Assembly: GCA_033439255.1 (NCBI GenBank)
Contig: CM065879.1
Span: 228,501-292,500, forward strand
Length of the DNA: 64,000 nucleotides
Direction of reading: 5' to 3'
Origin: Hericium rajendrae
Taxonomy: Eukaryota > Basidiomycota > Agaricomycetes > Russulales > Hericiaceae
Of the stretch, positions 6,059 to 61,238 are shown piece after piece. Each line of letters begins with the position of its first letter. Position 1 is the first letter of the stretch. The notes under the pieces were generated by a model. It saw only the letters and a list, made by a program, of their open reading frames with translations, was not told where the DNA came from and did no database searches. Position numbers and translations under genes: made by a program.

Positions 6059-6482
6059 GTCGTAGACAGCAGAGAACCACCCAAGTCACCAGCGATGATG
6101 GGAGCGAGAGAGCAGAGAGCGACTAGCAGCGCAGTGACCTGTATTGGAGGTACAGTACGGTACAGACGAAATGGACAATCTAGGGAAATAGATGAGCGAC
6201 AGGGAGCCTATAAGTACTGGGACGACAATGGAAAAAGAACAATGGACACCATAATGGGTTGAACAATAGAGTGAGAACAATGGTGACCAAAAGGAGAACA
6301 ATGGGAGGGAGAACAATAGGATGTCCCAAAGGGGAACAAGGGCATGGGTGAAGGATAGCCCCAGGTCATGTGAGGAAGTGAACATGTGATGGGGCTGCTG
6401 GAGCACATGACCGATGCGATGCCTTGATGGCAGAGAAGAAGGCAGAGAGAAATGGAGCGATCCGTGACAATTACGCACAAAG
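6059..6482. repeat. Second insertion in LINE ORF2, with GAACAATGG-type repeats
   Basis: About 425 bp of non-coding sequence separates ...SRLSDAITVK from the start of the RT block (SRNETATGLDGLPYELWKKL). Between 6225 and 6335 a degenerate motif GAACAATRG recurs about six times at 14-25 base spacing. The edges are approximate because no clear terminal repeat or target duplication was found. Confidence 0.5.
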
Positions 6483-9400
6483 ATGTCGCCATCCCGCAAT
6501 GAAACAGCGACAGGCCTCGATGGCCTCCCATATGAACTATGGAAGAAACTACATGGCCAATATAGGGCCCACAAAAAATTAGGAACTGAATACTTCAACC
6601 TTGTTAAAACACTTACGAATTTGTACAACGATATACAAGAATTCGGGCTTCTCCCAGGCTCTGACTTCAGTGCTGGATGGATGTGCCCGCTGTATAAAAA
6701 AAATGATAAGACGGAAATTGCGAACTACAGGCCGATCACCTTGCTCAATACCGACTACAAGATCCTGACGAAAATTCTAGCAATGAAACTAGCTGAATCC
6801 ATCCATTTGATGATCCACGAAGACCAAGCAGGTTTCATACCCGGAAGGTCAATTTTTGACCAAACAAGACTTGCCAAAACAATGATCGACTTCGCCGAAG
6901 CCACGGAAGTAAACGGCGTCATTATGGCCTTAGACCAAGAGAAAGCCTACGATAAAATTGAACATGAGTATCTCTGGAAGATACTTGGTAAATTCAACCT
7001 ACCGAACTGTTTCATCCAAACAGTACGATCGCTTTATGAATCCGCCCACACCAAAGTTGCCATCAACGGCCACTTCAGCAAAGCCTATCAAGTATCACGG
7101 GGCATCCGACAAGGCGACCCGTTGTCCTGCCTGCTCTTCGACCTAGCAATCGAACCTTTAGCCAGTTTACTACGAAATTCCCCAAAACTTACAGGTTTCA
7201 GAATACCAGGGACTGCACGAAGAGTCCTAGTAAGCCTATTTGCTGATGATACAGCCTTGTACCTCCACGAAAGTGATCGCTATGATGACATCGAGGAAAT
7301 TCTAGAGAAATGGTGTGCTGCCTCTGGTGCAAAATTCAACATCAATAAGACCGAGATACTCCCCATCGGAACGCCAGAACACAGAGAACGTGTATGCACA
7401 ATGCAAAAAATAAACCCCAATGACAGACGAACATTGAATGAGGCGACAAAGATCGCAGATGATCGGGCTCTCATCCGTTACCTAGGGACATGGCTAGGCA
7501 TCGATATTGATGATGCGACCCCCTGGGAAGTAATACTCGACCAAATCAGAAACATGCTGAAGCGATGGGCTACCAGCCGCTGCACAATAAAGGGAAAAAA
7601 ACATGTAGTACAGATGGTAGTAGGTGGAAAAACACAATACCTAGCGAAAGTACACGGTATGTCAACGAAAGTCGAAGAAGATCTGCAAAAGATAATCCAT
7701 AACTTTATATGGGAAGGAAAACGATGCGCACCAGTAGCCATAGAACACCTCTATAAGCCAGTCAAACAAGGTGGTATTGGCCTATTGGACATCAAAACAC
7801 AAAACGAAGCGATAGAACTCACTTGGATTAAATCATACCTGAACTTCAGCCCATCCCGACCCACATGGGCATATATTACCGACATCCTCATCAACAAGCT
7901 AGCCCCGGCACACTTTCATGGTTCCGCGACCATAAATGCCTTCCTACAGAATTGGTACCCGCCGATGCAAGGCCAACATAGTAAAAACCTGCCCTACGAA
8001 ATCAGCAACATGCTTAAAGTAGCGAAAAAATACAATACTGCCTTTGTTGCCCTAAAACTAGCAAAGGAAGTGAAAGAACAACTCCCAGCCTTCTATCATT
8101 TCGGTGCAAACACAACGAAGATGACTGAAAAACCAACATGCCTGCTTGAGAACCATGCGGTGCGATCAGTCGCAGACCTCATGATGGTGACCAGACGAAT
8201 CAACAACCCTACCACGGGTCGACCACACTCAGACCGACGGAACTGCCGATGCCAGGACTGCAAATGCGACCGAGACAATGACTGCACCCACCCAAATAAA
8301 TGTGCGATAGAAGCAAATGAAATGCTGAACTGACTGAAACCTAAGTATAACCCGAAGAAAGACCACATACATGACGGACTCACCCTTACGCACCGCCATC
8401 GACAGAAAAATACCACGGCAATAGCCTCGAACGGCTGCGTCCTTTTTGACCCAACAGTCACCTGTAAAACGACAATTGCAGAATGCTTCAGAGTCTTCAC
8501 CGACTCAACCAAAGCGTCAACTGAACCGGCTTACAGACTGACGAACCCACATGGTGGCCTGGATCTACCCCACCTGCACCGAACCATATACACAGACGGT
8601 TCATGCCAGAACAATGGAAAACTCAATGCAAAATGTGGCGCCGGCATCTGGATCCAGGACAGACACCCCCAAAATGAAGCCTTCCGCATACCCGGCAACA
8701 AACACTCCAACCAAATAGGCGAAATAGTAGCAGTTATCCATGCGCTACAAATCACAGACAACTGCGCCCCAATCACAATCAAAACCGACTCACTATACGT
8801 CAAAGATGGGCTTACCGAGCACCTCGCCACATGGGAAGACAGAGGGTGGATAGGAATAGCAAATAGCGCTTTTTTCAAGGCAGCAGTATACCAGCTACGA
8901 TGACGATCTGCAAAAACTGAATTCATGTGGGTCAAAGGACACAATGGCGAACATGGGAATGAAATGGCCGACGAATTAGCCGGGGAAGGCATTGATAAAG
9001 CAGAGCCGGACAAACTGGACTTGACTGTTCCAGACAATTTCACCATGACAGGAGCAAAAGCTATGACGCTAACACAATCTATCGCATACCACAGCATAAG
9101 CGATACGAAGAAAGAAAAATTAAGACCCACCACTCAGCTCAACCTTGAACGAGTCCGAGGAGCCCTTAGAACCTTCCTACAAACGGAGGAAACTGATGCC
9201 GCCATATGGAAGGCAACTCGACACAGAGATCTTAGCCTGCATTACCAGCAATGGCTGTGGCAAAACTACCATGGTGTATACTTTGTGGGCGACAAATGGC
9301 TCAAAGTTCCTGCCCTAGCTCACCGAGCTAAATGCCCCTGCTGCGAAGATCAAACTGAATCAATGAAACATATCCTACTCGAATGCACGGACAAAGCGAA

Positions 9401-22733: not shown

Positions 22734-23212
22734 ATGGCCATGGCTCGGATTGTGGCGGGGTACACTATTGAGCACGAAGAGCTCGTCAAGATGCTTAAAG
22801 CTCAGAGATGGGGTCCTGGACCTGGAGAGCCAGAACTGAGCGTAAAAGAAGCAATGATGACTTTCATCAGCTGGCGTTGTGCGCAGCCGGAACCAGAAGA
22901 CATAACAAAAGCGTTGCCACGGCCACAATGTGCGTACAGTCTTCGAGCTTCTGCGTGTCGTATCCACTAAAATTCATGGCAGACTGGTACGACAAAGATG
23001 ACAATGAGATCCTGGCTTTCATGACGCGGTATAGCGGTGAGAAAGCCAACTGGCGGACTCTTCGCTATAGGGAGATGCCCAAGGATAGAGAGATCCGGGA
23101 TAAATTCATCGCGCAGACGGGAAACGTGCTAGATGCCAAAAAGATGCGGTTTTGGAGTTCGCCGGAGACGTACTTGCATCTTCCCCTGGGAACTAAGCTC
23201 TTTCTAGATTGA
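22734..23212 (+). CDS. VAGYTIEHEEL orphan-family protein, copy A
   Basis: Not recognised as any named family. Exons 22734-22929 and 22983-23212 join across a 53 nt GTGCGT...GCAG intron to give 141 aa: MAMARIVAGYTIEHEELVKMLKAQRWGPGPGEPELS..., then LPRPQ-YWYDKDDNEILAFMTRYS, and ...NVLDAKKMRFWSSPETYLHLPLGTKLFLD. No signal peptide or membrane segment is seen. The intron lies at the same place and phase in copies B and C, which supports the model. Each of copies A and B lies upstream of, and convergent with, an F-box gene. The start could lie a few codons upstream, because the frame is open there in all three copies. Confidence 0.75.
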
Positions 23213-23590
23213 TAGCGGCCTTTTCTTACATTTGCAATTCCTGTTGATTCCACTTTATCCGACATGTTCTGATCGTTCCTGTAATTCGTCTCATTTTTGT
23301 GCCCACCATTTATCCTCGTACCGGAGACGTTTGACAGTCCCATTCAACTCGCAGTTTCGAGGTCGTGTGCAGAAGCTGTTCACGCAGATCTCGTAGGAGA
23401 TATAATTAAACTACACTGTATCCTTCACTCTAGAAATGGCCTCAGCAGTTCTAATAATCATGGCCACTGCCGCACCCTGCCATCTATGGAATGGTGAGTT
23501 ATGATTCTGACTGTCTTCGCCTTGTATTACACGTCAAAAACTAGAATTTACAGCTGTCTCAAATGATCACGTCCCATGTAAAGGAAGACT
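23213..23590. other. Convergent 3' intergenic region, block copy A
   Basis: About 380 bp between the orphan gene and the F-box gene, with no gene seen. Its right half matches 28120-28239 in block copy B. Confidence 0.5.
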
Positions 23591-25433
23591 TCATGCGTTG
23601 CTACAACTATCACATTGCAGATTCTCGACGTGTTCGGCAAGCTCGGGAGACAGAGCCTCGCTATCGTCGCATCCTGTGATCACCAGTATAGGAACGGGGT
23701 TTGCAAACGCCTTCCGCGTCTCGAGCATGGTAAGCAGCGACTCGCCGAGATTCGATGTCCAAGCGTATCTGAAGCCTGGCATAGTCTTACTCAAGGGCAC
23801 ATCAGTGATCCGGAGCTTGTCCAGGTTCGGAAGCAGAAAAGCCGAAGCCTCATAAAGCTCTGGAAAATCGAGATCTGGGATTTGGCCGTCCGGTGTGGTC
23901 CTCAGAAGCTGCAGGAAATAGTCGATGCCACGCCCCTTCAGCGTAAGATCTCTCACTGCGGACATCTTGCTAAACACATTTTTGAACGTGTCGTAGAGAG
24001 TGTATCTAAACTCCTCTGAGCTCATCGAAAGATCCGTGAGCTTGTGGACGTCAAAAGACCCGAGTAGTTGTTCTTCCGCTGTGGTATGACCTGCGGCTGG
24101 ATAGGTTCCGGAACTGGTCCATCGCAGGGAAAGTCGCGGCTGGACGACCTCGAAGTCCGCTTCGAACCACACCCGCATTGTGAAATCAGATCTGCCTGAA
24201 AGCCAGTGGTCATGATGGAGCTGCATCTTGGAAGGCGTTGGGCGGGATATCGTGTCTGTTGTCTCAATGACACCGGTAGCGAGAGAGATGATGCGGGGCG
24301 CTACCTCCGCATTGCGTGCCTTAAATTCGAAGTCCTTTCGTGCAGCTGGAGGTATAGTGAGACTAGAAAGAAACTCCATACAGGACGTGTCTGCCCAACC
24401 GTGGAGAACCAATGTCTTGAGAGAGAGTAGAGGGACATTCCCACACGGAATACGCTCTCCGGATACAGTGTTACGCCCAACGGCCCTCAAGTTTTCCAAT
24501 AAGGGAGACTCCTTAAGAACTGCTAGCAACTTGGCCAAGGAAAGGTCTCCTGCGATGTCCAGCTGTAGATCTGTCAGGTTGCAAAGGTAAGGTGCATCCC
24601 AATGGACACCTTCGCATCCGCGAATGGTAAAGCGGCATAAGCGAGGTGCTGTGCGTGCAAAAATGTGCGGCGGCAAGACCTTGGTAATAGTGTCTAAAGT
24701 CAATGATTCCAGCATAGGCGCAGGGTGGTTGAGATTGGCGAGCACCCCGAGTCTGCGCTCGTCAAGAGATCCGGGATCTAACTCTTCGATGTCTTCACTC
24801 CACTCTCTTTCTTCGCCTGAGAGATGTAGATCCTTCAAGCGCGACATACGGTCGGCGCTGACCGCCTTGAGCACGGCGTCGCAGACTTTGTGGTCTTTTG
24901 TAATGCATGCCGAGAGGCTGAAGGGAACCTGCTTCGACCTTGCAAGCATTTCGTCCATCCACGGTCCTGTCGGCGGGGCTCCAATGTTGGTCCACAGCGC
25001 AGGCGCAGAAAGCGCCACGTGTCTCCACCGTCGACAGACATGGGTCGCGGTAATCCATCCGAGGGACGCTTTGTCGCCGGACCGGTGGCCCTTCAGGGGC
25101 TCCGATGAGGGAGGGTCGCATTCGGCGAGGACGCTGAAGACATGCGTGAGCACCTCTGCGGGCAGTCGTGCTGTGATGGAGAGATCGTTGACGCGAGCGA
25201 CGGTGAGCGTGACGAGATGCTGGATCGCCTTGAGTTCGGTTAAAAGCATGTCGCGCGTGCGATTGACCGTCTCCATCGAGCTAAAAGCAGACACGCCGTC
25301 TGTGGAAACGAGTCTCGTCCGTAGACACGTCGCCCAGTAGTCGCTGCGAGCACGAACACAAATTCAGCATCAGAAAACGACGAAGGATCGTTAGTACGCA
25401 CCAAGCTCTATTTTCGAAATTGGCTGGACGCAT
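23591..25433 (-). CDS. F-box-like protein, copy A
   Basis: Exons 25433-25402 and 25343-23591 give 594 aa. The start MRPANFENRA joins CDYWATCLRTRLVSTDGVSAFSSMETVNRT across a GTGCGT...CGCAG intron. The F-box-like segment is at about residues 75-140: ARLPAEVLTHVFSVLAECDPP...LGWITATHVCRRWRHVALSAPALWTNIG. After it come irregular leucine-rich stretches (MLESLTLDTI, LCRFTIRGCEGVHW, NLTDLQLDI, MSAVRDLTLKGRGI), as in agaricomycete F-box/LRR proteins that present targets to SCF ubiquitin ligases. Copy B at 28240-30082 has the same length and exon structure. The target protein cannot be predicted. Confidence 0.85.
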
Positions 25434-25825
25434 GACGTGGTAGATGCTCGTAAGAAAATTGTGAGCTATCCGTGATAATCCAATGGAGGCTGGTGGCTTG
25501 TCCTATGATGTAAACAGTGATAGCGGGGGAGGGAAGTTGAAAGCGATGAGGCGACCAGTCTTAAGTATTATTGATGAACAATGAGCGCAACACAAGCCAA
25601 CAATGCGACTTGGACAATAAGACTTTCCATAAGCGAATTTCATACCAGACGTGACCTCTCCATCGACAAAGCGACCTTTCATTCCCCTCGTGATCAAAGC
25701 ATGCGCTCCTCGCAGGCGGGAACTAATGTCCTGGAGCCGTTACCAATGTCGAAGTTCGCTCTGTTCCTTCTTACCGGAGCACGCGCCGTACTGCTCGAAA
25801 GATCGTACCCCGCACATCCAAACCT
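25434..25825. other. Intergenic, block copy A
   Basis: No gene is seen. The stretch 25560-25765 matches 30640-30830 plus 31126-31146 of block copy B, in which about 295 bp of transporter-like sequence interrupts the match. Confidence 0.6.
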
Positions 25826-26830
25826 TCAATTCCGCAGATCCACAATAACCGCCTGGCAACCGGACGGCAGCGCCACATTCACGGACACCCGCCCGCTTTC
25901 ATGCAACACCGCGCCGTGCGCCTCGTGTATGTGCCTGAACATATGCAGCCGGCACGCCTGCAGCGCAGCCGCCCTCGCGGCGAGATACGGGCAGCTGGCG
26001 TCGAAGCCGCGGCGCGCCTGGTCGAGCGTCACATGCAGCGGGGTGTGCGTCAGGAGGATCTCGGTGTCGGGCGGGATCCGCGCGTGCATCGCTAGAGACA
26101 GGATCCTATGATAAGCGCCGGCCTGCGAGCTCGGGGTGCTGCGCACCGGAGTACTGGAATGCGCCATGTACGAAGAACAGCGTGGCCTGGGCGGAGAAGG
26201 ATCAGCGTGCTTCGAGAGCCGTGGACAGCGCCGCGCACCGGAGAACCGTAGACCTTCCACCGCCGCCCGGCGGCAGTGTCGAACTCGAGGCTCTGGTGTT
26301 CGAGGAAGTAGAAACCCGCGCGGCGCATCGCCTCGCTCGAAAGCATCTCGCGAGCTCGCGCGACGTCCTAAAAGAAGTCAGCATTGTGGATTACCATGCG
26401 GGCCGTGTAAATACCTCGTCACTGATACCATAGATACCGGTGCCGCGTCTCGGGAGGTCTATCCACTTCGTGTCCAAATACAGATCATGGTTACCTGCGA
26501 TATACCTGCGCCCATGCGCCTCATCATTACGCCCAAGTCTCGGAAAGCGCCCTCACACTTTCGTATGCTCGAGGCTCATAAGCCCGTCGACCGTCAGCTG
26601 CAGCTGCTCTATCGTACCCAAGCTGCTCAGATCGCCCGCCTGCAGCAGCACGTCGCCTGGCAGCACCGGATATACCCTCGAATGCATGTCTGGGATACAT
26701 TAGGATGCGCGTATGTTTGCGCCGTAGTTGTCGTACATGGTAGCGGATGCTGTGAAGGCTTAGGCGCTTGCAGGAAAACCGTGGCCGGTCTGCCAAGTAG
26801 GCGCTGGCACCGCATCTACACTTCAATAAC
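25826..26830 (-). pseudogene. Metallophosphoesterase, decayed copy A
   Basis: Homologous to the intact gene at 31536-32545. The metal-site motif GNHD is kept (AGNHDLYLDTKWIDLP), but the first block is broken. The stretch after VYDNYGANI hits a TAA, and the DTH motif now reads DMH behind it. The final motif GHIHEAHG has become RHIHEAHG, which changes the conserved Gly before the metal-binding His. The C-terminus still reads LLTHTPLHVTLDQARRGFDASCPYLAA to VIVDLRN. The gene is probably dead, because the N-terminal metal-binding block cannot be translated in one frame. Confidence 0.75.
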
Positions 26831-26856
26831 TTAAGAACACCAGGGAATCTCGTCAA

Positions 26857-27221
26857 TCCTTTGCTCTCTCGTTCCTATTCCTATTAGAAAGTTTTCGCAT
26901 TCGCCGAAATGGAATCTTGAATGCAATATTGGAGCTGTCTAACCCTAGGATGCCCCGCGTAAAAGCGACTGTTGAAGCATAGGGTTTGAATGGGCCCATT
27001 CCATTCCGGCCCTTGCGAAAACTCTCTACTGTTCTCTTTCTATTGTTTGCGAATACTAGTACTCAAGCTGAAACTCAAGCAAGTGCCTGCTGCTCGTATC
27101 CTTCAACACAACCCAACCACATACACGGACTCAAGGACAGAAATCGAGCTTCCTACTGAGGTTTGTACGATTGCATATGCTTTCTTCACGCTGGATTCAC
27201 CATCTTCTGCTCGGCTACAGC
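26857..27221. other. Intergenic; 5' flank of orphan copy B
   Basis: No gene is seen. The part at 27030-27060 (TTCTCTTTCTATTGTTTGCG) matches 22545-22570 upstream of orphan copy A and marks the start of the second duplicated block. Confidence 0.5.
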
Positions 27222-27689
27222 ATGGTTAGGATTGTGGCAGGCTACACTATTGAGCACGAGGAGCTCGTCAAGTTCCTTAAGGCTCAGGGATGGGGCCCTG
27301 GTCCTGGAGAGCCGGAGCTAAGCCCTCACCATGCATGGATGACTTTCGTGAGCTGGCGCTGCTCGCAGCCGCGATCAGAAGATCTGAGAAAACCATTGCC
27401 CCGGCCACAGTGTGCGTGCGATCTCCTACTTTACGTGTCGTATCCGCTAAAACTAGATGCAGACTGGTATGACAAAGATGGAAATGAAGTCCATGCCATC
27501 ATGACGCGGTATAGCAGCGACAGAGACAACTGGCAGACCCTTCGCTTCAATGAGATGCCCATAGATAGGGAGCTCCGGGACAAGCTCATCGTGCAGACAG
27601 GCAACGTGCTGGATCCGGCCAAGATGCGGTTTTGGAGCATGCCAGAGACGCACCTATATGTTCCCCTGGGCACTCCTTTTCTAGACTGA
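27222..27689 (+). CDS. VAGYTIEHEEL orphan-family protein, copy B
   Basis: Exons 27222-27411 and 27463-27689 give 138 aa: MVRIVAGYTIEHEELVKFLKAQGW, then LPRPQ-YWYDKDGNEVHAIMTRYS, ending HLYVPLGTPFLD. The 51 nt intron (GTGCGT...ATGCAG with a CTAAAAC branch-like site) is a multiple of three and has no stop, so a naive reading frame runs straight through it and adds 17 false residues. Copies A and C, whose introns are 53 and 50 nt, show where the true junction is. Function unknown. Confidence 0.8.
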   Translation: MVRIVAGYTIEHEELVKFLKAQGWGPGPGEPELSPHHAWMTFVSWRCSQPRSEDLRKPLPRPQCACDLLLYVSYPLKLDADWYDKDGNEVHAIMTRYSSDRDNWQTLRFNEMPIDRELRDKLIVQTGNVLDPAKMRFWSMPETHLYVPLGTPFLD

Positions 27690-28239
27690 CCTGTGAGTTG
27701 TCACTCGGCTGTCGGAACGTGCCTTGCCTTACATGATATTTCCTTTCAGCTCGAAAGGCTTGCGGCCGTGAACGATCCATGATTTCACAGACTTTTTGTA
27801 CCCAATGTATTACGATCGTTCGCATGCAGTTTCAGCATAGTTTTCGTCTCTATCATCTATGAGCACCGCGTGGATACTAATACTACTGAAGAAGTTAAAC
27901 TTCACGCTTCGACTCGTGATTTCGAGATTAGCTATCAGTAGACAACAAAGCGCGCTTCAATACTCGTCGAGCGATATAGAGGGATATATCTGAACCAAAG
28001 AAGTCTGCGCATTGAAATCCGCCCACTCCCAATCCGATCTCGTATCCCTCTGCAAAATTGAATGGATCACACTGCGCGAGCGGTACATAAATTCTGCATG
28101 CAGACCCAAATTCAAGCCGCTTTTAGTAAAGGGATTCTAATAAGTATGGCCACTGCTGTACTAGATCACCTAGCAGTATACGTCAAAAGCCATAATTTAC
28201 ATTTGTCTGAAATAATCACGTCACATGTAAGGGAAGACT
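27690..28239. other. Convergent 3' intergenic region, block copy B
   Basis: No gene is seen. Bases 27890-28000, including a CGTCGAGCGATATAGAGG segment, match 36650-36790 in inverted orientation next to orphan copy C. Confidence 0.55.
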
Positions 28240-30082
28240 TCATGCGTCGCTGCGAGTGTCGCATTGCAGATTCTCGACGTGTTCGGCAAGCTTGGGAGAC
28301 AGAGCCTCGCTATCGTCCCATCCTGTGATCACCAGTATAGGAACGGGGTTTGCAAACACCTTCCGCGTCTTGAGCATGGTAAGCAACGACTCGCCGAGGT
28401 TCGGTGTCCAAATGTATCTGAAGTCTGGCGTATTCAAGGGCACACCAGTAATTCGGAGCTTGTCCAGGTTCGGAAGCAGAAAAGCTGAAGCCTCATAAAG
28501 CTCTGGATAATCGAGATCTGGGATTTGGCCGTCCGGTGTGGTCCTCAGAAGCTGCAGGAAATGGTCGATGCCACGCCCCTTCAGCGTAAGATCTCTCACT
28601 GCGGACATCTTGCTAAACGCGTTTTTGAATGTGTCGTGGAGGATGAAGTCGAACTTCTCCGAGCTCATCGAAAGATCCGTGAGCTTGTGGAGGTCAAAAG
28701 AGCCAAGGAGTTGTTCTGCTGCAATGTGATCTGCGGCTGGATAACCTGCGAAACTAGTCCATCGCAGAGAAAGTCGCGGCTGGACGACGTCGAAGTCCTC
28801 TCCAAACCACACCCGCATCGTGAGATCAAGTCTCCCCGCAACCATGAAATCATGATTGAGCTGCATCTTGGAAGGCGTTGGATAGCATGTCGTGTCCGTT
28901 GTCCCAAGGATACCGGTAGCAGCAATAGCAATAACGCGTGGCGTTACCTCGGTGTCTTTGGCCTTAAATTCGAACTCCCTCCGTGCAGTCGGCGGAATAG
29001 TAAGACTAGCAAGGAACTCCGCGCAGGCCGTATCCACCCAACTGCAGAGAAATAATGTCTTGAGAGAGAGCAGGGAGACATTCCGGCGGGGATGACGCCG
29101 CTCTTCAAATGTAGTGTACAGCCCGGTGATCCTCAGGGTTTCCAACGAGGGAGACTCCTTGAGCACTACTAGCAGTTCAGCCAACGAAAGACTCTCGTTG
29201 ATGTCCAGCTCGAGACCCGCGAGATTGCGGAAGTAGGGTACACCCCAATGAACACTTTCGCATCCGCGAACGATAAGGCGGCGTAAGCGAGGTACTGTGC
29301 GTGCAAACATGTGTGGCGGCAAGATCTTGGTGACAGTGTCCAAAGTCAATGATTCCAGCACGGGCGCAGGGTGCTTGAGATTCGCGAGCACTTCGAGCCT
29401 GCGCTCGCCGAGACATCCCGGCTCTAGCTCTTCGATGTCTTCGCTCCACAGGCTCCATTTGTCACCCGAGAGATGCAGATTCTTCATGCGTGACATATGG
29501 TCGGCACTGACTGCCTTGAGAACGGCATCGCAGACTTTGAGATCTCTGGTAATACATGCCGAGAGGGTGAAGGGAACCTGCTTCGACCTTGCAAGCATTG
29601 TGTCCATCCACGGTCCTGTCTGCGGGGCTCCGATGTTGGTCCAGAGCGCAGGCGCAGAAAGCGCCACGTGTCTCCACCGTCGACAGACATGGGTTGCGGC
29701 GATCCATCCGAGGTGCACTTTGTCTCCGGACCGGTCGCCCTTCAGGACTTCCGAAGAGGGAGGGTCGCATTCGGCGAGGATGCTGAAGACATGTGTGAGG
29801 ACCTCCGCGGGCAGCCGCGCTGTGATGGAGAGGTCGTTGACGCGGGCGACGGTGAGCGTGACGAGATGCTGGATCGCTTTGAGTTCGGCCAAAAGCATAT
29901 TGCGAGTGCGATTGACGACCTCCATCGAGCTAAACGTGGACACGCCATCCGTGGAAATGAGTCTTGTCCGTAGGCACGCCACCCAGTAGTCACTGAACAC
30001 AAGCACGATTTTTTGAGTATAAGGACGACGAAGAAGCTTTGATAACGCACCCTTCGCTTTTTTCGACATCGTCCGAACGCAT
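28240..30082 (-). CDS. F-box-like protein, copy B
   Basis: Exons 30082-30051 and 29992-28240 give 594 aa, the same length as copy A. The N-terminus is MRSDDVEKSEG joined to DYWVACLRTRLISTDGVSTFSSMEVV. F-box-like segment: ARLPAEVLTHVFSILAECDPP...LGWIAATHVCRRWRHVALSAPALWTNIG. LRR-like stretches follow (VLESLTLDTV, LRRLIVRGCESVHW, LAGLELDI). A longer unspliced frame extends upstream to 30150, but splicing at 30050/29993 matches copy A and gives the same protein start. An SCF ubiquitin-ligase substrate adaptor is the likely role; the target is unknown. Confidence 0.85.
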
Positions 30083-30829
30083 GATGAGGTAGTTCGTCTT
30101 ATAGCTAGATTTTCTGAGACTTCAAAATGCAAAGTGCTGTGAGACAGCACTGCTCGTTGTATTGCTGGTGGCTTGCTTTTCGTACCAAAATATAGGGGAG
30201 TTTTTTTTTTACAACACGACGACTGCCCTGCTTAAGTAGGAGTATCGAGGAACAATAGAAGCTCGACAATGGAGCTGCGACAATAATGAGACATTCAAGA
30301 CTCGGAACCGAATTTCATTCCGCTCGGACAGTCTCGGTTACTTATCGGCAACTTGTCGGCGTGTGACAAAAGAGAGAAAAACTTTGCGACTCACTCCTGT
30401 CAGTTATAGGTTTTCTCGAGTCGACCAAGGCTTTATCAGAGTATACTGAACCTGGTACTGGCTGCAGTAGGGCCAGGTCAAGTATTTGTCTTGACGTGAT
30501 CATCGATCATCAGTGAGGAAAGGATGATGTGGCTGACAACAAGGTGAGTTCAAACTGCGGCCGGCATGGTGTCTGCACCTGTCTGCGCGTCGTCCGACCG
30601 ACTCTACGTCCTGTCCACGTCCGCCTCGACGCATCCTTTATCGTTAATGAACAATGAGCGCAAGTGAGTGACTCACTCAAGTCGACAATGCGACTTCGAC
30701 AATAAGACCTTCCATCAACGAATTTCATACCGGCATGATCTATCCATTGACAAAGCGACCTTTCGTAGCCTTTCGTGAGAGTAATCCCCTCATGATCAAA
30801 GCATGCAGTTCTCGCAGGCGGGAACTGAC
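30083..30829. other. F-box B promoter side and intergenic DNA
   Basis: No gene is supported. A T-tract lies at 30201-30210. Bases 30640-30829 match 25560-25730 of block copy A. Confidence 0.55.
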
Positions 30830-31125
30830 GCTCCGTGGAATCCGTTCTTCCAGGGCATTGGTGTGGGCATGCTGTCCATGACGATCCCGATCCTGCAGTG
30901 CGAAACGGCTCTTGGGCACGGTCACGGTCTCTTCGTCTCTCTCGGTTGAGTACTGCCTCAACCTCGAGTATCAGTATGCGCTCTCCGCTTGGGTCGGGTA
31001 CGCCTTCTTCTTCACCGTGCCCAATGAGATCGCGTGGCGCGGTCCCTGCAACATCCAAGCTGCGCTCGCTGTCATCTTGCTGAGCCGGACGTTTATCCTG
31101 CCCGGGCAACAATATCCTATAACAA
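30830..31125 (+). pseudogene. Fragment of a sugar/MFS transporter gene
   Basis: The plus strand reads GIGVGMLSMTIPILQCETA, then with a small shift SVEYCLNLEYQYALSAWVGYAFFFTVPNEIAWRGPCNIQAALAVILL. This resembles the middle of fungal MFS hexose transporters (the VGxxSxxxPxYxxExAP motif region and TM helices 5-6), although the Pro and Glu contacts are altered. It has no start, no end and is frameshifted. It sits exactly where block copy A is continuous, so it is DNA inserted after the block duplication. Confidence 0.65.
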
Positions 31126-31535
31126 ATTTTGAAGTTCGCTTTGTTCCTTCCTAGCTAGTATCAAGAAAGACTCACTTTTCTATACGGATGAAACTGTTCA
31201 TGATGCCAAAGAAAGGCCGCAGGATCATCGCGGACGCCAGCTTTAGTCGCCAAGGGTGGAGTCACAGAACCTGGGCCGACCTTGCTGTCTTCGTCTGCAT
31301 TCGAACGATCCAAGAGAAACTGAACATTCCCTAGATCCTCGCATGCCTGCAGTCCCTGTATGCCTCACACCCCACCTGCCGCATCGAATTCATCGACTCA
31401 AACTATACCGGGCCCATTCGGCTGCGAGTCCATCAAGTCTGTAAGATCGGTAGCCCATTATATCACACAAAACAAGAGATCACCCAGAGCACGCGCTGAG
31501 TTACTCGAACGCAGGTCGCAAATCATACCCAGACC
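31126..31535. other. Intergenic, mostly unique to block copy B
   Basis: No gene is seen. Bases 31147-31520 have no counterpart in block copy A. Confidence 0.45.
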
Positions 31536-32545
31536 TCAATTCCGCAAATCCACAATGACCGCCTGGCCGCCCGACGGCAGCGCCGCATTCACGGACACCC
31601 GCCCGCTTTCATGCACCACCGCGCCGTGCGCCTCGTGTATGTGTCCAAACACATGCAGGCGGCACGCCGGCAGCGTGGCCACCCTCGCAGCCAGATACGG
31701 GCAGCCAGCGTCGACGCCGCGGCGCGCCTGGTCGAGCGTGAGATGCGGCGGGGTATGCGTCAGGACGATCTCAGTATCGGGCGGGATGCGCGCGTGTATC
31801 GCTAGAGAAAGGACCCTATGATAAGTGTCGGCCTGCGAGCTGGGGGCGCGGCGCACCTTCTCCCTCTTCGGCGCCGGAGTACTGGAATGCGCCGTGTACG
31901 AAGAACGGCGTGGCCTACGCGCAGAAGGATAAGTGTGCTTCGAGAGCTTTGGACAGCGCCACGCACTGGAGAACCGTACACCTTCCACCGCCGCCCGGCG
32001 GCGATGTCGAACTCGAGGCTCTGGTGTTCGAGGAAATAGAAGCCCGCGCGGCGCATCGCCGCGCTCGACAGCATCTCGCGAGCTCGCACGACGTCCTGGG
32101 AGAAGTTCAGCATTGTGGATGGCGATGCGGTTCGGTCGGTGCAGTACCTCGCCGCAGATACCGGTGCCGTGCTTGTATCGCCTCGGGAGGTCTATCCACT
32201 TCGTGTCCAAGCACAGATCGTGGTTGCCCGCGATAACCCTGCGCACGGAGCCTCAGCACCAGGTACGCGCAGGTCAGGAGGGCGCACGCACACTTTCGTC
32301 GGGTGCGCGAGGCTCGTGAGCCAGTCGACCGTGAGCTGCAGCTGCTCGATCGTGCCCCAGCTGCTCAGGTCGCCTGCATGCAGCAGCACATCGCCCGATG
32401 GCACAGGAAAGATCTTTGAGTGTGTGTCTGAGATACACACGAAGCGTGTCCAGTCGGCGCCTGGGTGCGGGGGTATGTCCGTGCCGTAGTTGTCGTACAC
32501 GGTGGCGGATGCCGAGGACGCTATGGGGGTTGGAGACATCGTCAC
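31536..32545 (-). CDS. Calcineurin-like metallophosphoesterase (MPPED/UPF0046 type), intact copy B
   Basis: The five exons 32545-32292, 32238-32148, 32095-31967, 31914-31857 and 31801-31536 give 265 aa with all phases consistent. Metal-binding motifs in order: RFVCISDTHSK (DxH), LHAGDLSSWG (GD), VIAGNHDLCLDTKW (GNHD), IVLTHTPPHLTLD, and CRLHVFGHIHEAHGAV (GHxH). This order and the HTPP...GHIHEAHG spacing fit the MPPED1/239AB group of cyclic-nucleotide or phosphodiester hydrolases; the substrate in fungi is not established. There is no signal peptide. Its 5' end is 281 bp from the divergent Hook gene, so the two may share a promoter region. Confidence 0.85.
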
Positions 32546-54842: not shown

Positions 54843-55890
54843 GAGGCAGACAACCTTGCTCGCATCTTTGGAGCATGTTCAGCATGCATTTTTTCACCGC
54901 TTATTAGGTCTCTCCGCCCGGTCGACGCTTGCCTTCCTCTATACCGAGACAAGTTTGGAACCGCTGCGCTATCGCCGTGTGCAACTCCTCCTCCTCCCAT
55001 TCGTTCACTACGCCTCGCTGCAGCCGCCGGACCGCCTCGTATGCCATGCATTCCGCGCATTTCTCCACTTGGCAGCTGATGGCGTGCCCGGATGGGCTTC
55101 AGACGTTATTTATGTCCTGCACACTCTGCCTCTCCCGGTACATGTCATGCTGTCCGTTATTGACAGCAAAGCAAATACCAGACATTCTCGCACGTGTTAC
55201 CGCTTCCATGCGCACACATTGGTCTGCTGTCATCAACGCTTCCCCTCGTGCGACGCTTTTGAATGGACGGACGGAGATTGTACATCACGGTGAGTTGCCC
55301 AGCCAGCCGGTTTTCCATTTCAGGCCTTATCTCCAGGTCCGAATCCCACCACACCGACTAGCCCTCACACGCCTCCTCTTCACCGACCACCATCTGGCTT
55401 GCAAGGACCTGCGCCGTCCTTCTGCACATCAGCCTCGCATCCTGCGATGCTGACGCCTTTGTCGCTTCTGTAAAGCAGCTGTAGAATCCCCCGAACATGC
55501 CTTGTTGGAATGCTGTGCTCACCCGTCACTTTGCTCCCTCCGCACTTCCTTCCTCGAACGTGCCTCTCAGTTCCTGGGTCCAATGTGCTCTCGTACGCTG
55601 TTCGGGTCTCACGATACACGCTCGATCACAAAGAGCCTTGTGCGCGAGCGGGGCATCCTCGACATGCTTGCGAAGTTCACCTTCGATGTGCTCGAGGTCT
55701 TTGCTGCCTCGCCCGTGTTCATTCATCCTTCTGCACAAGTTTCGCATGTGGTATGTCTCTGTTTGCTCGTGCGCTGGCCGGTCCCTCACACTCTTGTCGT
55801 GTCTCTATGGGACGTTGTCTAGGATTGACCCGGTCTCATAGCCACGAGGTTCTCGCGTGCATGGGTTTACCCTCGCGGGAGGTTTTCCTG
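54843..55890 (+). mobile_element. 5'-truncated LINE fragment (C-terminal RT region), second family
   Basis: The plus strand reads HAFFHRLLGLSARSTLAFLYTETSLEPLRYRRVQLLLLPFVHYASLQPP, then WASDVIYVLHTLPLPV, and CRFCKAAVESPEHALLEC with the C-terminal CCHC-like knuckle seen after the RT of many basidiomycete LINEs. The frame is disrupted in several places. It differs from the Tad1-like LINE at 1-13.5 kb. The 3' UTR continues beyond the LTR element, at 58513-58905. Confidence 0.75.
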
Positions 55891-55894
55891 CCGC
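55891..55894. repeat. 4 bp target duplication of LTR element, left
   Basis: CCGC directly before the LTR at 55895. The same CCGC follows the other LTR at 58509-58512. Confidence 0.7.
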
Positions 55895-56058
55895 TGGAGC
55901 AGGCCAAAGGGACACGACGCAAGCCCTAGGATAGTGGCAGGATGAGGAATGTGCTACCACATGCTGACTCTGATCTAGCTCTATGCTGACTAAGCCTCTG
56001 CCTCTAGCGGTGCTATCATGTGATCTATGCCTCTCAGACCCCCTGATCTCCCACTCCA
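55895..56058 (-). repeat. 3' LTR (164 bp) of the LTR element
   Basis: Identical at every base to 58345-58508. It begins TGGAG and ends CTCCA, a perfect 5 bp inverted terminal repeat with the TG...CA ends typical of LTRs. Confidence 0.9.
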
Positions 56059-56071
56059 TCGTCCCCCCCTC
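56059..56071 (-). other. Polypurine tract of the LTR element
   Basis: GAGGGGGGGACGA on the minus strand lies directly upstream of the 3' LTR. This is the expected place for plus-strand priming. Confidence 0.75.
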
Positions 56072-56108
56072 AAACATGGCGACGCCCTCGTCGCCTCAAA
56101 AAAAGACC

Positions 56109-58310
56109 TCAACCAGAAGACTCACGAACCCAGCCCAGACTCTGCAAAACTCTACTCAGCTCAACCAAACGTGGATCTCCATCCCAACTCAGAGGTGAAG
56201 GTGGCACAGCAAAACCAGAAGGCGAACTCGAAACCTGCATGATAGATGGCCGACCCACACGAAGACCAGCTGGATGACGACGAGTGATCACCGGTGCTAA
56301 TAGAAAAGCGGGACGTGGTGGATGCAGATCAGCACGATGAGAACGACGAGCACGTCGCTGCAACGACCCAAATGGTGACCTCGAAGATGAACGTAGAACT
56401 GAGAAGTCACGGGGAGGTGGTAGTGGAAGCACCGAATGGATGGGGAGGGAATCAGCTTCATCAGCCCAGGAAAAGGATGCAGGAGGTGGAATGTTGGCAG
56501 ATGGGGAGCAGGTTTGTGTGTGAGCATCCACCTGCAAGATGGTTAATGGCATCGTAGTCTCCGTCTGTGCATCAGCCTGTTCAGGCCTCCGATCCTGCCA
56601 CCTACGAGATTCCTCCTCACAGCCTTTCGCAAATCCCACCGACTGAGCTGACTCAAGCTCCTTGTCCGACAGTGCAAACCCATCCTCGAAACCTGAATTG
56701 TAAGCGGTAAAACGAATTTCACGCAATAGCTGCTCGTCGATAGCGTCAATAGACGAGACGCGCTGCCCAAGGGTTGCGACTGCGGGTGCAGGGTCTGGTG
56801 CGTTGTCGGCTCGGGAAGTGGTGGAAGTGATGCGGGCCTCAAGACGACCCTGCGTGAGCCCTTCCTCCATTCCAGCGGTCCTGCCTTCTCTAAGCCCCTG
56901 CTCACGGCCCTCTACTCTTCCCGACTTCTTCCCTGCCTCAAGACCCTCACGGAATCCCATATTCCGTCCCTCCTTCAAACCCGCCGCGTGGCCTTGCCGA
57001 AGCGCAGCTGCTACGACTTCCTCTAGGTGCGCGGGATCGAAAATGGCGGGGTCGGCATCAGCGAAGATCGACGTGGGTCGTGGTGGCGTGTTGAGATGCG
57101 CGGCGGCTTCCTGGGGCCCTCTCGGTTCGAGTCCGGGCGTCGGCGGTATCGTGTCTTGGCGCGCGGACGAGGGGACCTTGTAAGGGGCAGATGGGGGGTT
57201 GGACTGCGCAGATGGCGGGGCGTGGGTCTCGGTACGTGCATGCAGGGCATGTGCTTCTTCATCGCGGGCTTCACCGCGGCTTCGCGACTTGTCTGCGGTC
57301 GCGGGTGCATGCGTGGTGCTGCCAGGTGGTACGGACCGTGCTCGCGGGTGGGGCACGCCGGCCGCGCCGGCTCCAGCGAGTATTGCCGGCTCGTTCATGG
57401 CGGCACGCGGACGTATGGTGCTCGGGGGTGGCGTGGGCGAGGCGCGTGGGGTCGTGGCTTGTGTGCGCGATGCAGGAAGGGCGGGAGTGCGTACCGGTCG
57501 TGGGTCTCTACCGTGCACGTCCCGCGCGGTGCACACCTCGTCCTCGCGTGGCCCTGAGCCCTTCTCCGACTCGTTCTCCGTGGCGCGCATGCGTATGGTG
57601 CGTTGGGGTGGCGTGGGTACGTCCTGCGCGTTCGCGATGGTCATCTGAGATGCGGGGAAGGTGGGCTGGGGTGTGGAATGCGCGTTCGCACGGTGGACGT
57701 CACGCGTCTCGCGTTGGGTGGTCGCGGGCGGGGTTTCTGGCTCATGTGCGATCGCGAATGGCGGCTGGGGGTGGCTATGCGACGTGCGAGCTGCGTTCGA
57801 GCTCGCTGATGCGGTATGCGGTGCGAAGGAGGAGGTGCGAGGCTGGGGGCACGCGTTCTGTTCGTGCACGTTGCGTGGCTGCTGCGTAGGCGCCGGCGTG
57901 GCCTCCTTTGAATCAATTGCGGCGGGGGTGTCGTCTGCGATGACGGGGGCTACGAGCGATGGCGCGGGGCTCGGGGTACTTGCTGCTATTGAAGCTGCTG
58001 CTGCTGCTCTCCAAGCAGCTTTGGCTGCGCGTTTGTTCTTGCCCATATCGGGTAATTCCGTATTCGGATGTCGAACGCAAGACTCGATGGCCGAATGGCT
58101 GCGCTGGGGCACGAAAAGGGCGGTACGCACTAGAAAACCTCTGCTGGAGACGATAGGAGATGCAAAAGATGCAAAAAGACACTGAGAGACGCAACACGGA
58201 GACACGAGACGCAAAGAGGCAGAGACGAAACACGAGGCACGCGAAAATGATGTGATAACTGCACGAAAAGACAGGAAGACTGCCGAAAACCCAAGCGCAA
58301 CGCAACGCAA
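56109..58310 (-). CDS. Single 733-codon ORF of the LTR element, possible Gag-like protein
   Basis: Open from just inside the primer-binding site almost to the polypurine tract. The likely start is the Met at 58046 (MGKNKRAAKAAWRAAAAASIAAS), giving 645 aa. About 300 residues of Pro/Ala/Thr-rich low-complexity sequence follow. The middle has AHLEEVVAAALRQGHAAGLKEGRNMGFREGLEAGKKSGRVEGREQGLREG, a charged helix with Gly every 4-8 residues, then SSIDAIDEQLLREIRFTAYNSGFEDGFALSDKELES. The C-terminus is Ser/Pro/Arg-rich. No CCHC knuckle, protease, RT or integrase is seen. Its place suggests a structural (Gag-like) role or a captured host gene; neither is shown by homology. The same Gly-spaced charged helix type is known from FliH-like proteins, and convergence is likely. 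Confidence 0.65.
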   Translation of the reverse strand: MRCVALGFSAVFLSFRAVITSFSRASCFVSASLRLVSPCCVSQCLFASFASPIVSSRGFLVRTALFVPQRSHSAIESCVRHPNTELPDMGKNKRAAKAAWRAAAAASIAASTPSPAPSLVAPVIADDTPAAIDSKEATPAPTQQPRNVHEQNACPQPRTSSFAPHTASASSNAARTSHSHPQPPFAIAHEPETPPATTQRETRDVHRANAHSTPQPTFPASQMTIANAQDVPTPPQRTIRMRATENESEKGSGPREDEVCTARDVHGRDPRPVRTPALPASRTQATTPRASPTPPPSTIRPRAAMNEPAILAGAGAAGVPHPRARSVPPGSTTHAPATADKSRSRGEARDEEAHALHARTETHAPPSAQSNPPSAPYKVPSSARQDTIPPTPGLEPRGPQEAAAHLNTPPRPTSIFADADPAIFDPAHLEEVVAAALRQGHAAGLKEGRNMGFREGLEAGKKSGRVEGREQGLREGRTAGMEEGLTQGRLEARITSTTSRADNAPDPAPAVATLGQRVSSIDAIDEQLLREIRFTAYNSGFEDGFALSDKELESAQSVGFAKGCEEESRRWQDRRPEQADAQTETTMPLTILQVDAHTQTCSPSANIPPPASFSWADEADSLPIHSVLPLPPPRDFSVLRSSSRSPFGSLQRRARRSHRADLHPPRPAFLLAPVITRRHPAGLRVGRPSIMQVSSSPSGFAVPPSPLSWDGDPRLVELSRVLQSLGWVRESSG

Positions 58311-58315
58311 CGCTA

Positions 58316-58341
58316 GTGGGTCGAATCCGCTCTCATCACCA
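58316..58341 (-). other. Primer-binding site of the LTR element
   Basis: On the minus strand it begins TGGTGATGAGAGCGGATTCG three bases after the LTR. Its complement ends ...TCGAATCCGCTCTCATCACCA, which looks like the T-arm and acceptor end of a tRNA. The exact tRNA, with acceptor stem GATGAGA and discriminator A, is probably Leu-like, but this was not verified. Confidence 0.75.
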
Positions 58342-58344
58342 CGA

Positions 58345-58508
58345 TGGAGCAGGCCAAAGGGACACGACGCAAGCCCTAGGATAGTGGCAGGATGAGGAAT
58401 GTGCTACCACATGCTGACTCTGATCTAGCTCTATGCTGACTAAGCCTCTGCCTCTAGCGGTGCTATCATGTGATCTATGCCTCTCAGACCCCCTGATCTC
58501 CCACTCCA
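58345..58508 (-). repeat. 5' LTR (164 bp) of the LTR element
   Basis: Identical to 55895-58058 less 2,000 in name only; the true partner is 55895-56058. In element sense this copy lies before the primer-binding site, so it should carry the promoter. Confidence 0.9.
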
Positions 58509-58512
58509 CCGC
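58509..58512. repeat. 4 bp target duplication of LTR element, right
   Basis: CCGC directly after the LTR, matching 55891-55894. Confidence 0.7.
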
Positions 58513-58905
58513 GGGCTCATCCCCGCTCGGTACTGACCCGGTTTTGCCATGGCGTCGGTTTTGGTCTCATCTGAGGTTTTCCTTTGCATGGATCTTTCAT
58601 CGGGTTGTGATTCATGTGTCTTGTGGCGGCCTGGTTTACCCACACACAGGTTTTTCCCTCAAAAAGAGATTTTCCTGGTGTGGGTTTTTCATCAGTTCAC
58701 CCGCTACACTGCTCTCTCTGTTCAATTCTGTGTGTTTGTCTTTTCTACTCTGTCGTCTATGTGCGTCATCCTCGACAGCGATCGGAGTAGTTACATGACT
58801 TGAGTGTACATAGCATAGTTTGTGCCTGACTATGTAGTATGAACACTGCTCTGTTCCGGAATGGGACCACTGCAGAATAAACCTTCCTTTCTTCCTTCCT
58901 TCATC
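58513..58905 (+). mobile_element. LINE 3' UTR with a (TTCC)n tail
   Basis: Continues the LINE fragment interrupted by the LTR element. It ends ACCACTGCAGAATAAACC followed by TTCC repeats. The same end is found alone at 41759-41795. The tail type differs from the A-tail of the Tad1-like LINE. Confidence 0.6.
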
Positions 58906-59176
58906 ACTCAAGCCGCGGGCTGCGGCTTTGGTATGGCCATCGACCATCTCATTGTCATGAACACTGACATGTCCTGGAACTCAGAGCAGAGTGATGCGGA
59001 GCAAGCGAATCAATACCAGTGCATTGTACTCTCATGACTGTGTTATTCGAAAGTACTCTAAGCCTATGCCATAGGAACAAATAGCACATCATCGCAGACC
59101 GGTTGCCCATGCAGTTCACAGAAATGCAGCAGACATTGTCCAAGGGCACCAAAACCTGGCTCTTGGATCAGAAGGC

Positions 59177-61238
59177 TCACCGACGTGCAGCAGCCTTCTT
59201 TTTCTCCGCAGTCTCCTGTCTCTTCTTGTAAGCAGCGGCATTCTTTTCCCGTTGGGCCGTCTGCTCTGGAATGATCCTACGACAACAATGATTTTCGAAT
59301 TTCCACCAGTCAATGACATGGCATACTCACATTGCCATCTTCTTAGTGGGCACCCGTGTGCGGCCGCTCCGCTTGCTGGGAGAGCCAAGCAAGGCTTCAG
59401 ACAAGGCGGCTGGAGGGGGTGCAGCCCGGGACGACTGATGCTGTGACTTTTGCTTCTCAGGTGCAGCTGGGGCATCCGATGGTGATTGTACCTTTCCCCT
59501 CTTCTCGATCTGAGCCCGAGCAGGCAGAGCCTGTTTGCGAATTCTCTTGCTGGGACCAGCAGATGGTGCAGCTGCAGGCAACATATTCTTTCCAGTGGTT
59601 TCAGAGTATGCTGTGCGAGCATTCTCTAGATCCTCCTTCATGGTAATGCATTGCGGTTCAACATACTTTCCGAGGTAACGGAACGGAATTGTAGAGTTCT
59701 GAACATAGTCCGGGACCCCTGCATCAGGCCGACTTTCATCATCAGAGTCCGATGCACCCATCTGTGCAGTTTCAAGATCCCGGAGCAGTTGCCCATACGC
59801 CAAGGCCACCTCCATCAGTGCTGGTTTGCTCAAGATGTCTCCATCGCAATTACGCCAAGGCGTCTTGGGGTCCAATAGCCACTGTATCTCAGACTTGGGA
59901 TTCACATTGGCATGAACACGGCGCGGCAACCATGGCCTTGGATAGTCAAATGTAGCCCAGTCAGGATGGTCTGGGTCTGCTGTAGTGCGATGTCCCTGCT
60001 GAAGGTATGATCAAATAACCAACATGACATATATTTTGGGACAGCGTACCCTGCACAATGAGATCTCCAGCACGAGGTCTTGATACAACTGCAGTCCAGA
60101 AAGACCGCTGAGGAAGGCAAACTTGGCTTTTTCATTTTTTGCCGAGTTTCCTGGTGTTTTCAGCGGACTGCCATCTGAGTCCAGACCGACTTGTGGATCA
60201 ATCCGAGCCTTGTTTTTGGACTTATTGTTCGAAGGCATGGTCCCCGCACGCCGTTCCCTAAGCTGTTGCAAAGCCTTAGCTTTCCCAGCATTTGTCACTC
60301 GTAGACTGGTTTCCAATGGCATAACGTCTTCGACATCATCCACATCCTCCTCTTCAGATCCGAAAGAGCCCAGGTCGAAAAACTCTCCATGTTCGTCGTA
60401 ACCATTATGATCCTTTGTCCGAGCATTTTTGCGACCCGAGGGAATGCCAACCATCTCGACATCCTTCTCAGCTTCCGCGTCCGAGACATCCTGAGGGTTG
60501 GGCACATCCCGGTCTGCAAACCGCACTTGAATTTCCTTCCGTCGACGAATCCGGACAGTCTTTCCTCCCCCGGTGTTGCCCTCACTGTCGGATGGAATCT
60601 CCATCACAGGGGTCCACTCGCCCTTCACGACGACCGCCTTGAACTCTAATACAGTGAGGCCATCAGACTCCCAGTTCTGCCAGAATTCGATGATGGGTTT
60701 GAGTTCCTGCCTATTAATGCGTGATGGATCTTCCCAAACGTATCCCGTAGGAAGGTACATCGGGTCAATGTAGTTCTCGAAGCCGTCAGCTTTTATCTTC
60801 GCCCAGGGAATTGCCGATGCCTTCGGATTGGCGCGTGCTGATGAATTAATGCATTAGCCGGGCCAAGCATGTTCATCACAGAAAATACACACCGTAATGA
60901 AAGGTTAGAAACTCCCTTATCAGCGATATCAACAAATCTGGCGTGTATTCTTCGAAATCCGCAGGTATTGTAACACCTCCGTCTGGATTGTAGATCAACT
61001 GTAGAGTTGGTTTCCTGGACTTCTTGACTGCGTGGCCCGGTTCATTGGAATCATCCCCGGGACCTTCTGGAGTCAGCACCGCAGACCAAAGCATGAAATT
61101 CTGCATACCATATAGAGCTTCGGCATAGGATGTCCAGGCCGACATCATTGGCTGCTCATCCCAGTCCTTCACTGCTTCTGCGAGGGTTGGCCGTCCGAGG
61201 TCACCGTTGTAATCGAACCTGGGTTCATTCAATATCAC
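59177..61238 (-). CDS. Orphan lysine-rich protein, four exons
   Basis: The visible exons join in frame. First: MILNEPRFDYNGDLGRPTLAEAVKDWDEQPMMSAWTSYAEALYGMQNFMLWSAVLTPEG...DLLISLIREFLTFHY. Next: ARANPKASAIPWAKIKADGFENYIDPMYLPTGYVWEDPSRINRQELKPIIEFW. Then GHRTTADPDHPDWATFDYPRPWLPRRVHANVNP and the tail IIPEQTAQREKNAAAYKKRQETAEKKKAAARR. Introns are GTGTGT...CATCAG, GTACGC...CAGCAG and GTGAGT...CGTAG. Acidic (EEEDVDDVEDV) and basic low-complexity parts suggest a nuclear protein. No named domain is recognised. Proteins with this N-terminal WTSYAEALxxMxxFxLWSA pattern appear widespread in agaricomycetes, from memory and not checked. An upstream exon is possible. Confidence 0.65.

Follow-up and report, generated by a model that had tools for sequence, protein, structure and literature searches.

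How does a retroelement without enzymes of its own move through a genome, and why does it keep the single gene that it carries? Both questions are raised by a 2614-bp long terminal repeat (LTR) element that lies in minus sense at positions 55895-58508 of a 64,000-nucleotide stretch of the Hericium rajendrae genome (contig CM065879.1; C2:228501-292500, hereafter the window). As a first-pass annotation had stated, the interior of this element is almost entirely one open reading frame (ORF) without enzyme motifs. Yae1_N was the only Pfam domain that the product of this ORF matched in our scan (E 5e-7). Using searches of the genome (46.77 Mb in 19 contigs), we examined the element, its relatives and possible helpers, and came to read it as a member of a semi-autonomous LTR retrotransposon family that is cross-mobilised by a Ty3/Gypsy partner, with a probability of roughly 0.85 to 0.9 for identity and cross-mobilisation jointly. 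A recent insertion of such a family, together with a protein that has been kept, is very probably the best explanation of the locus as a whole.

The element is complete, its two LTRs being identical at 164 of 164 bases, beginning with TGGAG, ending with CTCCA and flanked by CCGC, as had been described (coordinates in Table 1). When its flanks were joined and compared with two uninterrupted copies elsewhere, 198 of 200 and 197 of 200 bases matched, and one CCGC was present. The left flank is part of a repeat found 17 times (98-100% identity, the window's copy being one of them), and left and right flanks abut exactly in all 16 of the other copies, every one of them empty. The empty-site comparison concerned the window copy, and empty sites with a single CCGC indicate that this copy arrived by insertion with a 4-bp duplication; together with the further copies described below, they rule out chance repeats or a tandem duplication. 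TG...CA direct repeats, a target-site duplication, an empty site, a tRNA primer site and a polypurine tract thus identify an LTR retrotransposon. The tract, which had been placed in contact with the LTR, actually lies 4 bases away from it. With 2614 bp and a 645-codon ORF, the element is not a terminal-repeat retrotransposon in miniature (TRIM), a class below 1 kb and without coding capacity, nor is it a large retrotransposon derivative (LARD), in which a large interior is non-coding, since here the interior is mostly one constrained ORF.

To place the element in a family, the genome was searched with the C-terminal domain of a diverged copy, and this revealed 66 matches, or about 62 loci after four split pairs had been joined (two of these, C4:266319 and C4:269105, may be one split copy). 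At 36 of the 62 loci, the domain is free of stops and the frame spans at least 550 codons. Whole elements were fetched for 15 loci (the window copy, L031-L034, L037, L038, L040-L043 and L058-L061), and the other 47 were judged by coordinates. All 15 ORFs lie within LTR pairs, which differ at 0 to 2 positions, and this rules out, for the fetched copies, a host gene sitting between coincidental repeats. The ORF is no single-copy gene of the host, and further copies have target duplications of their own.

The autonomous partner whose enzymes the element had been supposed to borrow was found in the same genome, in the form of two enzyme-bearing Gypsy elements with the same LTR ends and primer site. 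L039 (7.0 kb; LTRs 98.8% alike over 172 aligned bases) carries a Gag ORF with a CCHC knuckle and a Pol ORF with reverse transcriptase (RT), RNase H and integrase matches, while L035/L036 is a 10-kb Gag-Pol element with CCGC duplications, one LTR difference in 165 bases, and both Gag and Pol split. In L039, Pfam found no Gag and no protease domain, so that its Gag is named from position and knuckle, and the same scan identified no protease in L035/L036. Identity to the window LTR is 70% for L039 and 80-81% for L035/L036, and Gag of the partner clade has 18 matches in the genome. LTR ends, primer site, polypurine tract and a hairpin are common, with small variants, to all 17 elements compared (the 15 ORF elements and the two Gag-Pol elements); the elements of the window's subfamily also have the beginning of the leader in common, as judged by eye. 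The hairpin is fully paired in 15 of the 17, and of its six pairs, numbers 1, 4 and 5 show changes on both sides. In a control on 11 elements, 66 of 66 cells were paired in register versus 54 after the 3′ arm had been slid by −3, and 20 to 32 after other slides. The ORF elements therefore have what defines a semi-autonomous Gypsy partner, namely an intact ORF, no RT or integrase, and handling motifs in common with an autonomous element. This anatomy strongly supports copying and integration by the partner's enzymes.

Target sites were compared in 22 insertions, comprising the 15 ORF elements, the two Gag-Pol elements and five solo LTRs (five of nine single-LTR loci; L049-L052, which are partial LTR matches, were left out). 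The 4-bp duplication was exact in 21 of these, L061 showing one mismatch, and its centre was CG in 20, as in the GCGA found on both sides of L040, the remaining two centres being TG and CA. With a CG frequency of 0.069 in the window, the binomial P for this excess is about 1e-21. NCGN duplications are common to ORF elements and Gag-Pol partners, pointing at an integrase preference for CpG. The spacers measure 4 bases between polypurine tract and LTR (56059-56062) and 3 bases between LTR and primer site (58342-58344; 2 in L061). In retroviruses 2 bases are usual, and the integrase may here remove a longer stretch.

On the minus strand, three bases (TCG) separate the LTR from the primer site, as had been noted, and the site is similar to the 3′ ends of three of the genome's tRNA genes. 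The window site aligns over acceptor and T arm with 25 matched positions, 1 mismatch and 2 single-base gaps, giving a score of 42 versus a best of 24 among 3000 random window segments. The tRNA genes were called only with introns allowed (none otherwise), whereupon ARAGORN reported one Leu(AAG) and two Ile(GAT); because the anticodon-loop sequence CTAAG is common to all three, we infer that each is a Leu(AAG) gene. Genome-wide, the primer-site pattern with at most 2 mismatches occurs at 64 places, compared with 5 for the reversed control. Of the 64, 33 stand beside the ORF and 11 beside Gag of the partner clade; seen from the ORF, 33 of the 62 loci are preceded by the pattern on the same strand, at a distance of no more than 6.5 kb. 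Of the partner clade's larger Pol matches, 9 of 17 also have the pattern within 8 kb (the 17 come from 22 close matches, five fragments being left out), although one of the nine, C4:258976, is probably the primer site of a nested ORF element. The pattern was found near none of 24 distant Ty3 matches, which come from the 46 scored of 396 candidates. With copies that have their own duplications, a primer site matched to a tRNA and a Gypsy partner, the description of the locus as a non-autonomous LTR retrotransposon of a fungus stands.

Next, we asked whether the ORF is under selection, using nine intact copies of the 15 (the broken L031 and L043 and also L058-L061 were left out). The ratio of nonsynonymous to synonymous divergence (dN/dS) was 0.14-0.38 in the C-terminal domain (36 pairs) and 0.21-0.49 in a block of GxxxG repeats (28 pairs, two undefined). 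Pooled uncorrected ratios (pN/pS) for the three blocks of the protein were 0.38, 0.55 and 0.78, with every bootstrap interval below 1 (0.31-0.47 at 95% for the C-terminal value), and differences in the C-terminal domain were in excess at third codon positions (0.44 versus 0.22 and 0.19). When dN/dS was computed likewise for one pair of partner elements, Gag gave 0.13-0.18 and RNase H-integrase 0.05, with no defined value for RT. Thus, the gene is constrained, most strongly at its C terminus. Were the ORF a passive passenger whose frame is kept by chance or youth, one could point to the many recent copies, to the broken ORFs of L031 and L043, and to the 26 of 62 loci with a stop in the domain or a frame below 550 amino acids. 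The long frames at the other 36 loci, dN/dS below 1 in all three blocks and the third-position excess largely contradict such a reading, which we regard as very improbable.

The protein family ranges from 591 to 929 amino acids (13 copies). For the window member, the first-pass range of 645 to 733 residues holds at its lower figure, counted from ATG, whereas the 733-residue figure begins at TTG. The protein starts with a basic stretch (MGKNKRAAKAAW; isoelectric point (pI) 12.0 for the first 20 residues), continues with a long part rich in Pro, Ser, Thr and Ala, and ends in a domain of about 123 residues with the pattern SWADxxDSLP...PRDFSVLRS...RRARRS...LxWDGDPRLxELxRVLxxLGWV. This domain gave no match in Pfam and no sequence match in the PDB. 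Pattern searches picked out 19 stretches in viral contigs and 38 in prokaryote genomes, none of which was confirmed as a relative; for fungi, the search covered the present genome. Yae1_N was matched by all 13 copies (best E 5e-11), and the only other Pfam match was a weak one to SMN_YG-box (E 0.15) in one copy.

The Yae1_N match raises the alternative that the element captured the ORF from its host, as a gene for a Yae1/Lto1-like GxxxG protein with an added C-terminal domain, and that this protein would act outside the particle, for example against silencing. Yae1 and Lto1 are deca-GX3 proteins and are alike in the GxxxG repeat, but the element's protein differs from them in its basic ends, its Pro/Ser/Thr/Ala-rich part and its own C-terminal domain. 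Besides the match in all copies, separate and better-scoring Yae1_N matches exist at C3:2168590 and C8:1009559. However, what is common is confined to a 39-position repeat model, whose place in the protein shifts from copy to copy, neither Pfam nor the PDB offers a counterpart of the conserved C-terminal domain, and no LTR-free donor gene was identified among the 15 fetched of 62 loci. The repeat match does not prove host origin, and we consider capture possible but unlikely.

The other alternative is a Gag diverged beyond recognition, which would make the family a fungal counterpart of the plant TR-GAG elements or of wheat Quinta-type elements. TR-GAG (terminal-repeat retrotransposon with Gag domain) elements are non-autonomous LTR elements with one large ORF, named for that domain; the single large ORF is alike here, but a Gag domain is not recognised. 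A large protein encoded downstream of the primer site would suit a Gag, the C-terminal dN/dS overlaps that of the partner's Gag or indicates slightly weaker constraint, and Pfam, which misses the partner's own Gag as well, says little on Gag identity by its silence. Gag-supplying partners have been described in wheat (PMC11302176). Against this, hhalign gave probabilities of 0.0 and 0.1% in comparison with the partner's Gag, using a shallow profile that combined one Gag with two pieces of another, and CCHC and YxDD motifs were absent from all 13 copies scanned, while the partner's Gag has a CCHC knuckle in both elements. The ORF as a diverged copy of that Gag thus found no support; the profile being shallow, a hidden Gag retains some probability, and we judge it distinctly unlikely. 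The first-pass proposal of a protein that is Gag-like or captured from the host is accordingly not supported as it was stated, in view of the missing similarity to the partner's Gag and of a repeat match that proves no host origin.

Under the cross-mobilisation reading, the element would be transcribed from its LTR, its RNA would be packaged into the partner's particles, reverse transcription would be primed by a tRNA-Leu-type primer, and the partner's integrase would insert the product at NCGN with a 4-bp duplication. We tentatively suggest that the ORF protein assembles with itself and binds RNA, namely the RNA from which it is translated, and that it brings this RNA into, or stabilises it in, the partner's particles, its basic ends contacting RNA and its GxxxG helices multimerising; this particular role is a good deal less certain than the mobilisation itself. 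A cis-preference of this kind would account for the persistence, under selection, of a gene in an element that relies on another's enzymes. An improbable variant is a divided, two-component retrotransposon in which Gag-Pol and ORF elements depend on each other and the ORF protein, provided by the enzyme-less element alone, acts in trans for both; if true, the pair would behave like a segmented virus-like system that exchanges ends between its segments.

Several observations weigh against these interpretations. The primer pattern, as searched, is missing at 29 of the 62 ORF loci, 20 of its 64 places adjoin neither ORF nor Gag, and just 9 of the 17 larger partner-clade Pol matches have it within reach. 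The N-terminal part of the protein is weakly constrained (dN/dS 0.56-0.88, 36 pairs), the value for the whole ORF (0.41-0.61) is well above the 0.05 of the partner's RNase H-integrase, and all such ratios are approximate, many dS values being near saturation. The protein shows neither similarity to Gag recognisable by hhalign nor, in 13 copies, a CCHC knuckle. A single-sequence AlphaFold2 model of residues 340-645 was poor (mean predicted local distance difference test score 51.8), which leaves charge and repeats as the whole basis of the proposed role.

Comparison among copies also bears on the history of the family. Copies of the window's subfamily are 97-100% identical at their ends, but identity in interior stretches can be as low as 47-80%; between the window copy and L031, the first kilobase is 92-100% identical and identity then drops sharply. 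Such mosaics fit template switching between co-packaged RNAs of different lineages, gene conversion being an alternative. At a fungal rate of 1.05e-9 substitutions per site per year (PMC5689174), a single difference between LTRs of 164 bases stands for about 2.9 million years, so that identical LTRs mean recent in a coarse sense only. The element had been called young; this fits the window insertion, but the ORF family is old, with a C-terminal synonymous divergence of about 1.5-2.5 between the most distant copies compared.

Table 1. Features of the element in the window (the sense of the element is minus).
Feature	Position	Strand	Remarks
Target-site duplication CCGC, copy 1	55891..55894	.	single CCGC at empty sites
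3′ LTR, 164 bp	55895..56058	-	same as other LTR; LTR matches 35 places genome-wide
Polypurine tract GAGGGGGGG	56063..56071	-	sequence; 4 bases from 3′ LTR; small variants across 17 elements compared
6-bp hairpin GGCGAC-GAGGGC-GTCGCC	56078..56095	-	immediately upstream of polypurine tract; in 17/17 elements
Single ORF, 645 codons from ATG (MGKNKRAAK...), stop included	56109..58046	-	relatives at about 62 loci
Conserved C-terminal domain, pI 11.8	56112..56480	-	alignment A1 (15 copies); dN/dS 0.14-0.38, 36 pairs
GxxxG-repeat module matching Pfam Yae1_N	56841..56957	-	13/13 copies match
Primer-binding site TGGTGATGAGAGCGGATTCGACCCAC	58316..58341	-	complementary to tRNA acceptor and T arm
5′ LTR, 164 bp	58345..58508	-	identical to 3′ LTR
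Target-site duplication CCGC, copy 2	58509..58512	.	

Some further observations concern individual copies and the surroundings of the element. L043 (297-7032), a relative of 6.7 kb, has identical LTRs, but several kilobases, including tandem arrays with units of about 80 and about 122 bp, interrupt its ORF, and it was apparently mobilised in this split form. ORF elements are seemingly nested within the Gag-Pol partner family at C13:433167-438478 and C12:1034028-1043365, and a solo LTR with ACAT duplications (L048, 3654-3818) lies directly behind a Pol match of the partner family, in opposite sense. The stops in broken ORF, Gag and Pol copies are mostly TGA, with a few TAG and no TAA listed, as would result if CGA decayed to TGA at methylated CpG. 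The invaded repeat occupies window positions 55494-55894 and 58513-59300 around the element. A Pkinase_fungal match is found nearby, and like the tRNA genes with introns it suits a fungal genome. Elsewhere in the window, a 621-codon frame with an RVT_1 domain (6468-8330; E 3e-34) belongs to a separate retroelement, and large direct repeats recurring every 4.5-5.7 kb or so at 22739-32437 (74-91% identity; one copy with an F-box-like ORF) are probably tandem gene duplicates.

Among known systems, the closest analogues appear to be pairs described in wheat, RLG_Quinta with RLG_Cereba, and RLG_Sabrina/RLG_WHAM with RLG_Wilma (PMC11302176, PMC9744471). As described in the passages cited, these likewise involve enzyme-less elements with an intact ORF, LTR ends and primer site in common with an autonomous Gypsy element, and lineages that show signs of having recombined; Quinta additionally encodes a domain of unknown function, and the short proteins of four Sabrina derivatives have no relatives in wheat. 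Whereas the wheat families, on that description, have a recognisable Gag or short unique proteins, the family here encodes one protein of 591-929 amino acids without detectable similarity to Gag, and it further differs from them in its fungal host, in purifying selection on the protein and in 4-bp NCGN duplications. Non-autonomous LTR elements of fungi are represented by the TRIM and LARD elements of Boletales, termed non-coding in the text concerned (PMC5689174), and by Helenus, which gives 5-bp duplications (PMC10886601); TRIMs are given as below 1 kb and as encoding none of the mobility proteins (PMC5689174, PMC10886601). Unlike these, as far as those accounts go, the H. rajendrae element has a coding ORF and 4-bp duplications. 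LTR retrotransposons of bdelloid rotifers are alike in carrying an extra ORF, but theirs is described as additional to a conserved set (PMC5408684). A literature search, with subscription journals and Repbase outside its scope, found no fungal non-autonomous LTR element with a conserved non-Gag ORF, no retrotransposon carrying Yae1 and no fungal Gypsy family targeting NCGN.

Elements that borrow their enzymes would be expected to lose their genes, and here selection has kept a protein without detectable similarity to Gag through deep divergence. Since identifiable helpers reside in the same mid-sized genome, the question of why the gene is retained becomes directly testable, be it through cis-preference, a part in the particle, action against silencing or mutual dependence, and the NCGN target preference offers a second tractable feature of the family.

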